From: Chondrosia reniformis
Lineage: Eukaryota; Porifera; Demospongiae; Chondrillida; Chondrillidae
Direction: 5' to 3'
Assembly: GCA_947172415.1 (NCBI GenBank)
Contig: OX359190.1
Span: 9,300,001 to 9,364,000 of the forward strand
Length of the DNA: 64,000 bases
The notes under the pieces were generated by a model. The model searched no databases. It saw nothing but the letters and a program-made list of their open reading frames with translations, and was not told where the DNA came from. This document shows, piece after piece, positions 32,901 through 54,228 of the stretch (its first letter is position 1; every line of letters starts with the position of its first letter). Both the position numbers and the translations under genes were made by a program.

Positions 32901-35900
32901 TCTCTCTTTCCCTTCCTTTCTCTCTTCCTGTCTCTCATGCACTCAATCTCAGGATTACTGCAAGAACATTAATGAGAAGGGAGTGTGTCTGGATAAGATT
33001 ATGATCAGGAACCCTGACAAGCGACCAATGATGGCCTCAAGGTCAAAGGACAACATTAACGGCTCACAAAATGCTTCAGGCACCACCAGCCCTAACCCAG
33101 AACTCTCAGGTGATCCTTTGTTAATTGGAGCATCCCACTCTCCAGCAATTAGATATTAGGTCTCCTTCACCTTTTGGGAGCTTCACCTTTCCACACCACA
33201 TTCAGTTGCTTTGACTACTGAATGTGACCTTTGCATGTAACCTTTTGACCCAGGGGAGGGTCTTATGTGGGAAATCAACCTGCTGTGTCTGTAGAGGTTA
33301 CTTTGAAGTAGTTTCCCAATGATTAACTGGATTCTCTTCCAAGTATCTAATTAGGGATGTCTCACATATGTCTCAAATGTGTATATACGTAACTATGAAA
33401 TGTGAATTAGTTACAAGTGAAAGAGATATATTTATTAGTATGCAATTTCTACTGCACAGGTCACGGTGGCATTAGTCCCTCATCAACTGAAATGAGTGAC
33501 TTGTCGTCTATAAATGTATCTCCTGCTTATGTGGATGGCGAGTTTGTGTTCCACTCAAGAAATAACTCAGGTATATGCCTACAGTACATGTCTATAACTC
33601 AGGTATATGCCTACAGTACATACATACGTATGTGTATAACTTGGGTATATGCCTACATACTGTATGTACATATGTGTATAACATGTAGTGTGTATGCGTG
33701 TAAGTGTGCAATTTTATCCATTGATGTACATATAACAAACCTGGTATAGACATTCTATTTTCCAGCCTTGCTCAAAGAGCCTGACATCAATATTGTGAAT
33801 CATGTGCCTTTACTGATTCAATCACTCTTAATTCTGCTTCTAGCTGCACAGATTTGTAGGAATATTAAACGTTATCACAACATTTTAGATACTTTTATGT
33901 CTATTATGTAGTTGATTCTTTTCAAAGAACTGGTCCTAGTGAATCCAATTCAAGCAAGACAAATGGTGACATTGATAAACCTATCACTCTGCAAGAGTTC
34001 CATGACAAGAGGCAGAGAATCATTGAAGTTCCTTTGCAGTCCTCAATCAAGGCAAACAGTGGCTCCTCCACAAGTCTCAACAACAGTGGACAAGCACCCT
34101 TAGATTTTCCTCGGTCCAACACACTGTCTACTGATATCCCTCGCAGACTGCTGACTGTAGATGAACCTGACCACACCCCCTCCAGTAGTGGGGGCACACC
34201 CAAAAAAGGGTCCATACGCCTTACAAGGGGACATAAAAGAGGAAAATCCTGGGGAGGATCAAAAGGATTGGATTCAGATTTAGGTTGGCTTGCAGTCTGT
34301 ATTACATCTCTACCTTACAATGCAGATCTAAATTACGTAGTTATCTTAAAGTGGAATTTATGTAATATGCTATTCCAATATTTCAAAAGACGGTAATGAC
34401 AAGCCAGTCCAGCTAGCATGATATAGTAATAATTCCGTACTACTATTATATGAGATGAATCGTATAGTTAAAATTCCAAAACTACAATTTTGTTTGTTTG
34501 TTTCTATAAAATTAATAATAGTAATGAGTCTAATTTATAATTTCATATTATGTACTTGTATCCAGGCTTCTTTTATAAGCTAAGAGGTAATGTTCAAAAA
34601 CTGTACATTTTGGACATTATCAGGTTAAAGGTGGTATATTTTAGTTGTTGGTAATACATATGTATATGCAGGTCCGGTAGCTGAAAGTACAGAGTTTCAT
34701 ATTGTCAACAGTGACAACAAGGCGTGGGTCTTTGAAGCTAGCTCAGTGCCTGAGAAACGGGAGTGGATCAAGGTGATTGAGCAAGCCATCAAAGAGTACA
34801 TTTCAGCATCTTCCTTCAAGAAGGAGCAACATTCCTTGTGCAATGAAGACAAGAAGGAGATTCAAGGTAGACCAGGAAATGATTTTTGTGCAGACTGCAA
34901 TGCTACCAGTGAGTGAAGGAGGCTTTCTCCATACTCTGAAGCTGTGGTGATGTTTGAGGTGTTCCTCTAAATTATGTAGAACCAGAATGGGCCTCACTGA
35001 ACTTGGGATGTCTGCTTTGCATCAACTGTTCTGGTGTTCACAGAAACCTTGGAGCCCACATTTCTAAAGTGCGATCTCTGGGTCTTGATGCATGGAGGTA
35101 TGTACGTATGTACATGTTGAAGTGAATATGTCTATCACTTTGAATATTGCTGTTATAATATCTGATAAATGCGTACATTCATTATTACAGGATGCAAAAG
35201 ATTTGCATGCTTTCAGCACACAAGTGGTTAACTGTTATTACAGTTCTTTTTTTGTTTGATTCCCTTCACAGACCAGAGCTTGTCACTGTCATGTTGGCCT
35301 CTTCCAATCAAACCAATCGCAACATATACGAGGCAAAGACACCTTCTCGAGGGACTAGAAGACCTATCCACTCTGCTTCAAGGTACGTAGGCTTGCTGAG
35401 TTGTTTGGAATTCTTGGTGCAATATGATTTGAGTTTTGTGATTTTATATACGTACATACCACAACTTTACAGAGAGGAGCGTGAAGCATGGATCAGAGCA
35501 AAATATGAGAAGAAAGAATTTCTAGCCGACTTACCTTCAAGTGAAATGAGTGTTGCTGAAGTAAGTATTAATTTGTATAGACACTGTCTATATATCGATT
35601 CTTCATATTAAGTAGTATAACTCTGAGATGTCCAATGTATGTAGTCTTGAATGTTGCAACCTTTCTTGTGTCATTATGCATCAGGTGTTACCGCTGGCAT
35701 TCACCCCATATATAGACTGTCATTCTAATGCAACTTAACTTTTTCCACATATACGTAGCAACTGATGAACTGTGTTGGCCAGGAGGAAGTTGAAATGAAG
35801 GATTTTCTGTTGTTGATGGCACATGCCACATCAGATGACATTAATTATCAGCACAAAGACAAGAGTGGCAGAGCAGTGCTCCATGTTGCTTGTGTTCGAG

Positions 35901-53216: not shown

Positions 53217-54228
53217 TGTCAATTAATGCTCACACGACACACTGAGATATGATGTCATTTTGGGAGGAGCTAACACTGCCATTATCAACCCCCTAATTAG
53301 ATAAGTAGGAATATAATTATCAACCCTTTTAGGTCTGTTGTGTTAGCAGTATATATTAGAATAAAGCGTTATTGTAAGAATAGATTGCCACTTCATGTAG
53401 CATATGGTATACGTAGTCTTAAAAACTAATATACATATTATATATTTTACAATAAAGGTAGCAAGACAACATTTAACATACAGACGTGACATGTGCTATA
53501 TATAAGGCATAGTTTAGTGAGTAGGTGCTACTATGAGTTATATATATATAGGAGTGTAGTAGAAGGATAAAATAGACCAGACGTGCACTTGTTGGCATTT
53601 AATAGGACGTCAGTCCACTAGCTATGAGATTAGACTTCAGTCACTTGACAGCTGATCTTGCGTATATAACACACATCATGCAGTGATTATTCATCAATCA
53701 CTTCACAGTTAATCAAGGAATATATAGATATACGTATGACAAACAAAGTGCAACATGAATGTACTATCTTTTAGATGGTACATCTTGCGGTTCTTTGTGT
53801 GTCTAAAATTACAGTTTGGCTTGATAAATCTTTTGGTCAGAGGTTTTGATCCTGGGGGTCTTCACCAGCGACTGATGGATAGGATTTTCATGATTCGTAT
53901 TTCCTGTCACATGATCTTCAATCAGAAGAGAGGAAGAGGAAGTATAAAAAGGTTTCCAGGAATGCTGTAGAATGATTCATTGGTCCATAGGTTCACACCG
54001 GACATTGCTGGATCCTTAGCACTTCCTTGACTCTCCTCCTGTGCCAATTTGTTTCCCTGTCAGCAATTCTGGCCTGGTCTCAAGCAATATCATTGCCCAA
54101 GAACTGAAAGATGTACCGTCTTATAGATAAGTTCAACGCAGTTACAGTAGAAGAAATTCTTATTCTATTATGAATGTACTTGAACAAAATATTAATATAA
54201 AATTCACTGTTAAAAGACAAGTTAGATA
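53217..54228. other. T5-T6 spacer with repeat-derived sequence
   Basis: It contains the T5 promoter block, then a stretch similar to the arms of the 28246 foldback element (gttggcatttaataggacgt, agacttcagtcacttgacag, about 53590-53660), then 53755-54110, which is derived from dispersed repeats and a retroelement remnant. The 71-codon plus-strand ORF at 53755-53970 recurs at 59271 only because the block is duplicated. No gene is supported. Confidence 0.55.
53990..54110 (-). mobile_element. Retroelement C-terminal remnant (Penelope/GIY-YIG-type end suspected)
   Basis: On the minus strand, one frame reads DQARIADRETNWHRRRVKE and then VLRIQQ, preceded by a stop where a Trp would fit and followed quickly by another stop. 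The NWHRRRVKE-type motif is familiar from the C-terminal ends of animal reverse-transcriptase elements. This is recollection of the family, not a search. It is a short, dead fragment and recurs at 59510-59630. Confidence 0.4.

Follow-up and report, generated by a model that had tools for sequence, protein, structure and literature searches.

We analysed a window of 64,000 nucleotides from the genome of the sponge Chondrosia reniformis (assembly GCA_947172415.1, contig OX359190.1; the window is C2:9300001-9364000, and positions without prefix are counted from its first letter), in which a gene of the AGAP family on the plus strand meets an array of TRAF-like genes on the minus strand. BLAST searches of the window and its flanks have shown that the region between 34.7 and 53.2 kilobases (kb) consists of five units, each made of a tail of the AGAP gene on the plus strand and a TRAF-like gene on the minus strand. 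The tail of the AGAP gene proper (c1) is found again at four places (c2, c3, c4 and c5); the longer pieces are 90-99% identical, and a few short degraded pieces show 72-85% identity to c1. The initial annotation of this DNA had already described such an alternation, which is real, but it counted four units instead of five. What it took for a collapsed remnant of the third unit at 47.1-47.3 kb is the tail of unit 4, whose complete TRAF gene (T4, 47.6-49.4 kb) had been left out. The convergent stop codons lie 320, 346, 328 and 108 bases apart in units 1, 2, 3 and 5, which agrees with the range of about 110-350 bases that had been proposed.

The AGAP gene starts at approximately 30.8 kb. Its upstream exons (approximately 30795-34396, plus strand, from open reading frames) cover a putative GTPase-like and a linker region; a Ras match at 31308-31499, found in one of the five open reading frames scanned, has E = 0.0074 and 16.3 bits and stays below the cut-off of 21.6. 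The last six exons form tail c1 (34672-36428, plus strand; E1 34672-34908, E2 34980-35097, E3 35272-35382, E4 35473-35560, E5 35759-35932 and E6 36243-36428). It has GT/AG splice sites and an open frame and belongs to the readable parent that had been noted next to the units. It encodes the end of a PH domain, then ArfGAP, then ankyrin repeats: Pfam finds ArfGap (8.2e-38, 129.5 bits, cut-off 28.7), followed by Ank_2 (1.4e-13, 51.6 bits, cut-off 27.3) and preceded by the C-terminal part only of PH (4.9e-6, 27.4 bits, cut-off 25.1). Judged by the lesions in c2-c5, which comprise indels, splice-site losses, an exchange of Cys to Tyr and deletions, only copy 1 provides a complete end of AGAP. Being joined to the AGAP body, it would be the working end of the gene. 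Within the AGAP gene there is also a minisatellite (31896-32343) with three frames open, the minus strand of which reads as repeated VDQEGGAKM.

The first acceptor, that of E1, is absent from all of c2-c5. In c2 (39084-41008, plus strand), E1 has three indels and an altered donor, E2-E6 are open with GT/AG sites, although the E4 donor is GTAACT instead of GTAAGT, and intron 4 contains a repeat insertion. In c3 (43660-46184, plus strand), E1 has a 5-nt deletion and the E2 acceptor is changed from AG to AA, while E2-E6 are open and in frame. This tail is interrupted by a 732-bp insert in intron 5 (45224-45955), a foldback repeat with a perfect inverted repeat of 71 nt (45730-45800 and 45885-45955); at least 40 other near-full-length copies of it, 92-95% identical, exist in the genome (40 of 1352 candidates scored). 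Internal GT/AG sites and the reading frame are both conserved in E2-E6 of c2 and E3-E6 of c3, and in these exons only. The remnant c4 (47118 to approximately 47370, plus strand) keeps 136 bp at 99% identity and a degraded intron 2. Finally, c5 (49912-51272, plus strand) shows Cys to Tyr at a zinc ligand in E1, three indels within E2-E6 and a partial deletion of E6 that includes its acceptor. When c1 was searched at DNA level against the whole genome, with very common words skipped and all six candidates scored, there were ten matches, every one of them inside the units at 34.7-53.2 kb.

All TRAF-like genes of the array lie on the minus strand, and they differ in their 5' ends. The A-type 5' end, starting with MTD or MND, is found in T1 (36749-38539), T2 (41355-43145) and T4 (47625-49412, complete); the B-type, starting with MALSKSKQ, MAFSKSKQ or close variants, is found in T5-T18, where it is shortened in T6 and has a broken frame in T14. 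T5 (51381-53216) follows an AGAP tail, yet its 5' end is of the B-type. T3 (46513-47114) is a remnant that adjoins c4; its 5' third is missing and MATH1 and MATH2 are fused, such that 46693-46921 matches both MATH repeats and the BLAST alignment stops at position 1140 of 1785. To the right follow T6 (54229-56043), which is the first tail-free gene, and, between 56899 and 64000, T7, T8 with a broken frame and T9, which runs beyond the window. Of the copies, 17 are of full-length scale, and all of these have an open frame except T8, T13, T14 and T17, which are broken, so that 13 are open. A RING domain (zf-RING_UBOX) and zf-TRAF were above the cut-off in all five scanned proteins (T1, T2, T4, T5 and T6), as were two stretches of MATH_2 and TRAF-mep_MATH, and the nearest solved structures are those of TRAF5, TRAF3, TRAF2, TRAF4, TRAF1 and TRAF6. 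Within T1, MATH1 (36927-37150) and MATH2 (37461-37684) are approximately 90% identical over 224 bases of DNA, that is, as close as blocks compared between genes, which suggests gene conversion between both domains of one gene. The two relatives from C1 that we read seem to have one MATH each, because both MATH parts of T1 match a single stretch in them; the double form may therefore have arisen by internal duplication.

Just past the AGAP stop there are AATAAA or ATTAAA signals on the minus strand at 36444-36452, 41024-41032 and 46200-46208, downstream of T1, T2 and T3; the antisense TRAF transcripts may take their 3' ends from the AGAP tail. Such hexamers occur within 350 bases of the TRAF stop in all five tailed genes and in none of the four tail-free genes T6-T9 (9 of the 18 genes were examined). 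We set this contrast aside, since we estimate that DNA as AT-rich as this holds nearly one such hexamer per 350 bases by chance and since the five tailed signals are largely homologous.

As a whole, the minus-strand TRAF array spans approximately 70 kb and holds the 17 copies of full-length scale and the remnant T3. Genes T6-T18 extend it to the right up to about 105.6 kb in window coordinates (approximately C2:9405616), and BLAST gave no trace of an AGAP tail beside any of these 13 genes, so that the tails are confined to the leftmost 5 of the 18 TRAF copies. The array has a gap at C2:9378521-9395337 (78.5-95.3 kb) with three identical open frames of 133 residues (at 81930, 89231 and 92800), which are probably a repeat. 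T13 and T15 are 95.3% alike.

The sequences between the units record how these were joined. The A-type 5' spacer after T1 (38540-39083) ends in a junction to the middle of E1 of c2. The A-type spacers after T2 (43146-43651) and after T4 (49413-49903) are 83% and 81% identical to it, the three can be aligned end to end, and the junction is common to them. Tails c2, c3 and c5 therefore begin at one identical transition from TRAF spacer to E1, which c4 has lost. In the coordinates of c1 the junction point lies approximately 20-35 bases inside E1, past its acceptor, and this is why the downstream tails have no E1 acceptor. The proposal that the duplicated unit spanned the tail of AGAP and the whole of its convergent TRAF-like neighbour is borne out by this common start of units 2, 3 and 5, and a single breakpoint followed by amplification is the simplest reading.

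Since tandem repeats often cause assembly errors, and since T3 and c4 do have a collapsed appearance, one has to ask whether repeats were collapsed or falsely expanded by the assembler. We consider misassembly of the units unlikely, and an artefact as the explanation of the locus hardly credible. Outside the AGAP exons the units are approximately 10-20% apart and have indels of their own, and the longest exact direct repeat between 34 and 54 kb has 192 bases, compared with HiFi reads of about 12.9 kb on average at approximately 70x coverage (10.31 gigabases in 0.80 million reads, as given in the assembly details in PMC12181767).

Next to the junctions we considered trees. The initial annotation had proposed that unit-wise duplication would be supported by a match between a tree of the AGAP pieces and a tree of the adjacent TRAF genes, and such a match is not what we see. 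In a tree of the coding sequences of 17 TRAF genes (T3 was left out) with two outgroups from C1, 7 of the 16 inner branches stay open, and T1, T2, T4 and T5 do not form a clade (3 label changes, a value as low in 117 of 500 shuffles). The TRAF genes have visibly exchanged sequence: between T7 and T9 the identity rises from 91.6% in the first third to 99.5% in the last, and the array as a whole has a mosaic structure that bears marks of gene conversion. A similar picture is given by the tails, where c4 was left out of all statistics and c5 of the three-way counts. Of the informative intron sites, 12 join c1 with c3, compared with 2 and 1 for the alternatives; 10 of these 12, however, come from intron 4, a weakly aligned stretch in which c2 carries an insertion. 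A grouping of c1 with c3 is seen in intron 4 and in the 3' flank, whereas over the first part of intron 5 c1 agrees with c2 (0 differences in 58 positions, one gap), so the tails look mosaic. The grouping of c1 with c3 cannot be checked against the TRAF coding data, T3 being a remnant. Unlike the coding sequences, the junctions and spacers carry a unit-wise signal; with tails and junctions as markers, the history of the units can be followed even where conversion has mixed up the genes' coding parts.

The coding sequences of the TRAF-like genes vary in a particular place. For the codon and entropy analyses we kept 15 of the 18 genes (T3, T8 and T14 were left out). After the motif LLNQLQ the mean site entropy is 1.04 in MATH1 and 1.01 in MATH2, compared with 0.40 in the rest of MATH (p = 8e-13). 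The mean ratio of nonsynonymous to synonymous substitution rates (dN/dS) is 0.87 in MATH2 and 0.94 in the short linker that precedes it, compared with 0.49 in MATH1 and 0.27 in the RING part. The variable segment of MATH2 aligns with the TRAF3 stretch DAFKPDPNSSSF, and the order of letters in this stretch equals that of the TRAF2 contact residues except for a K/R exchange. According to PMC7215387, the residues of TRAF2 that contact TRADD include D445, R448, P449, D450 and S454, and its receptor hot spots include F447, F456 and the three serines S453-S455. We infer from these alignments that the array varies the presumed receptor-binding face and keeps the E3 part, and the proteins' putative function is read from sequence in the same way. 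Given the variability of MATH, the array may provide a set of TRAF-like adaptors that differ in their partners.

Taken together, we think that the locus is probably best explained as the edge of an older array that underwent a one-breakpoint duplication of a unit, amplification and later remodelling. An older 70-kb minus-strand array of TRAF-like genes would have adjoined the plus-strand AGAP gene tail to tail, and the units would be its left edge. A tandem duplication with one breakpoint approximately 20-35 bases inside E1 of AGAP and the other in the 5' spacer of the A-type TRAF gene at the edge would have created an initial unit of about 4.4 kb, and unequal exchange would have raised the number of units to five. 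Later, deletions would have made T3 and c4 adjoining remnants, unit 5 would have acquired a TRAF gene whose 5' end is, as in the older array, of the B-type, and c2 and c3 would have received repeat insertions. The TRAF genes would be the cargo of this process, that is, RING-zf-TRAF-MATH-MATH adaptors whose coding sequences were shuffled by conversion.

Several observations do not fit easily into this history. T5 stands off the simple tandem series, since both its 5' end and its right flank are B-type. Its 3' flank (51270-51384) best matches the spacer of the tail-free gene T10 (C2:9364206-9364477) with a score of 47, followed by T2 with 32 and T3 with 27. An assignment of this flank to the A-type was dropped, the T10 flank being the closest, and the likeness to T10 may go back to an exchange between remote parts of the array. 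Unit 5 may stem from an exchange with the older array, or T5 may have been the original neighbour of AGAP; the first neighbour could have been of A-type or of B-type. Furthermore, c4 shares 99.3% identity with c1 and c3 but 96.1% with c2, which simple copying of units 1-2 into units 3-4 does not predict. The order before the duplication is deduced from this one genome, and E2-E6 of c2 and c3 may be better preserved than one would expect of mere passengers. As the initial annotation implied, a unit of AGAP tail and TRAF gene might have been ancestral to the whole TRAF array, with the right-hand tails lost later. The RING-zf-TRAF-MATH-MATH coding sequence is common to all genes of the array, and the tailed T5 has the 5' end of the right-hand genes, as this would suggest; BLAST, however, finds no tail remnant beside the 13 right-hand genes, and related TRAF arrays exist on C3 and C1. 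We therefore judge this origin very improbable.

It remains to ask why some of the copied exons are so well preserved. Over 675 bases E2-E6 of c1, c2 and c3 differ pairwise by 1.5-1.9%, compared with 6.7-10.8% in the introns, and have no indel, whereas introns of similar length have 8 in c2 and 14 in c3. Relative to c1, these exons carry 10 differences in c2 and 11 in c3, some of them common to both copies. There are 6 private changes in E2-E6 of c2 and 7 in those of c3, where 23.5 and 31.7 would be expected from intron rates (intron 4 was left out, c2 having an insertion there). When exons and introns are compared directly in the columns of c1-c3, again without intron 4, private changes number 6/677 versus 20/640 in c2 (p = 0.005) and 7/677 versus 28/640 in c3 (p = 0.0002). 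Since the tails are mosaics, Poisson values overstate significance. The dN/dS values are 0.24 for c2-c3, 0.19 for c1-c2, 0.06 for c1-c3, 0.28 for c2-c5 and 0.18 for c3-c5. A block-wise rank test of exon against non-exon gave one-sided p values of 0.003-0.024 for five of the six pairs (0.003 for c2-c3) and of 0.053 for c1-c3. In the columns of all four tails, without intron 4, exon changes are fewer than intron changes in c3 (p = 0.006) and c1 (p = 0.003), and we found no difference in c2 (6/606 versus 7/348, p = 0.25) or c5 (p = 0.20). Private nonsynonymous and synonymous changes stand at 4:2 in c2 (compatible with neutrality, p = 0.46), 2:4 in c3 (p = 0.035) and 4:4 in c5 (p = 0.11); pooled, they are 6:6 for c2 and c3 (p = 0.05) and 10:10 without a stop for all three (p = 0.012).

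One explanation is that c2-c5 are pure passengers, dead at birth, which conversion or unequal exchange with the working copy 1 has refreshed. The mosaic tails, with c1 joined to c2 at the start of intron 5 and to c3 in intron 4 and the 3' flank, speak for it, and so does the comparison of the tail introns, which are 7-11% apart, with the spacers of the same units, which are 17-19% apart. The private changes of c2 are as expected for a neutral sequence, and E1 has stayed close to that of c1 in c3 (6/201 sites differ) and in c5 (6/206), although it can be spliced in neither. However, the introns between the well-kept exons are mostly 5-10% diverged and have indels, so that conversion tracts would need to end near the exon borders. 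Conversion should also reduce synonymous and nonsynonymous changes alike, and neutrality predicts approximately 70% nonsynonymous changes, 25% synonymous changes and 6% stops, in contrast to the pooled 10:10. We regard this explanation as possible, at somewhat less than an even chance. The initial annotation described the AGAP pieces as passengers, which may not do justice to E2-E6 of c2 and c3, although the tests are not unanimous in this respect.

Alternatively, the downstream tails could be, or could until recently have been, alternative 3' ends of AGAP. The transcript would run through the antisense TRAF genes, and E1 of c1 would be spliced to E2-E6 of c2 or, in a variant, E2 of c1 to E3-E6 of c3, with the TRAF genes nested in long AGAP introns. 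Such use would account for the scarcity of private changes and the missing indels in E2-E6 of c2 and c3, the low dN/dS values among c1, c2 and c3, the excess of intron over exon changes in the three-tail columns and the rank test for c2-c3. The internal GT/AG sites of exactly these exons are kept, while the unusable E1 of c2 decays (11/188 sites, 3 indels), and the damage sits in the farther copies c4 and c5. At the same time, the products would differ by merely 4 (c2) and 2 (c3) residues, the E2 acceptor of c3 is lost and the E4 donor of c2 is altered. In the four-tail columns c3 is the only significant case among the downstream copies, the 4:2 of c2 agrees with neutrality (p = 0.46), the 2:4 of c3 has p = 0.035 and the pooled 6:6 of both is borderline (p = 0.05), the rank test for c1-c3 misses significance, the equally unusable E1 of c3 and c5 is little changed, and the Poisson values are inflated as stated above. 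In view of this we hold the alternative ends to be rather unlikely, although they deserve attention. The fullest form of the idea would be an AGAP gene whose 3' cassettes, namely E2-E6 from copies 1 and 2 together with a part of copy 3, are clustered alternatives that arose by co-duplication with antisense TRAF-like genes. A regulator of Arf and an immune-type array in the course of diversification would then be interleaved, and transcription of each through the other might link their regulation; this we consider more doubtful still. If the exons of c2 and c3 are used, they would show how a neighbour can gain alternative ends when its tail is copied.

To the right of the TRAF array there are plus-strand open frames at C2:9406720-9408809, which we take, from a motif, to resemble a carbohydrate sulfotransferase. 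Related TRAF-like genes with 54-67% identity form clusters at 6.64-6.74 Mb of C3 and at 9.72-9.79 Mb of C1, and there are further relatives on C5, C7, C8 and others; in total, at least 84 matching pieces were found (74 of 178 candidates scored). The cluster on C3 (C3:6636602-6737296) is a second large one-strand cluster, approximately 55% identical to the array on C2, in which some genes recur at a spacing of about 20.5 kb. It contains a tandem array with a unit of approximately 260 bp (C3:6663494-6666257, L037:7494-10257). In the 20 kb at C3:6656001-6676000, out of the cluster of about 100 kb, duplicated TRAF blocks are present and we identified no passenger from a neighbouring gene. The units at the AGAP gene had been seen as a record of how a TRAF family expanded. 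With 5 of 18 copies tailed and other TRAF arrays on other chromosomes, the expansion is wider than the AGAP-tail unit, and what we describe is the growth of one edge and not the origin of the family. In an animal whose lineage branched off early, the units let one read the edge of a rapidly changing TRAF-like array, with one breakpoint, five units and visible exchange.

In the titles and abstract starts of the literature that we searched there was no description of the arrangement of AGAP tails and TRAF genes, which may still be published elsewhere. For sponges, a passage of PMC4772301 reports that TRAF-domain-like domains are enriched in two species (SC and AQ); arrays, a double-MATH form and exons of a neighbour, as seen here, are not described in that passage. 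A section of PMC9798719 reports regulation of TRAF and, in that section, no arrays.

With the TRAF family (TRAF1-6) the sponge genes have the RING, zf-TRAF and MATH domains in common; they differ in that the proteins have two MATH domains, are encoded in one open frame of approximately 590-615 residues and exist in many arrayed copies. Similarly, PH end, ArfGAP and ankyrin repeats follow one another as in the AGAP family of Arf GTPase-activating proteins, and a putative GTPase-like region lies upstream of them; what sets the sponge gene apart are four further, partial copies of its 3' end downstream. Birth-and-death gene arrays are known to arise by tandem segmental duplication in which a neighbouring gene is carried along in truncated form. 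The unit-wise tandem duplication that carries a neighbour's tail is a real and clean case of a kind already known, and what it leaves unexplained is the quality of some of the copied exons. The shared breakpoint, the head-to-tail units, the decapitated copies of the neighbour, the mosaic identity and the remnants are found here as in the known arrays; unlike there, five units are interleaved, the parent is still in place and some downstream exons of the neighbour are kept better than its introns.

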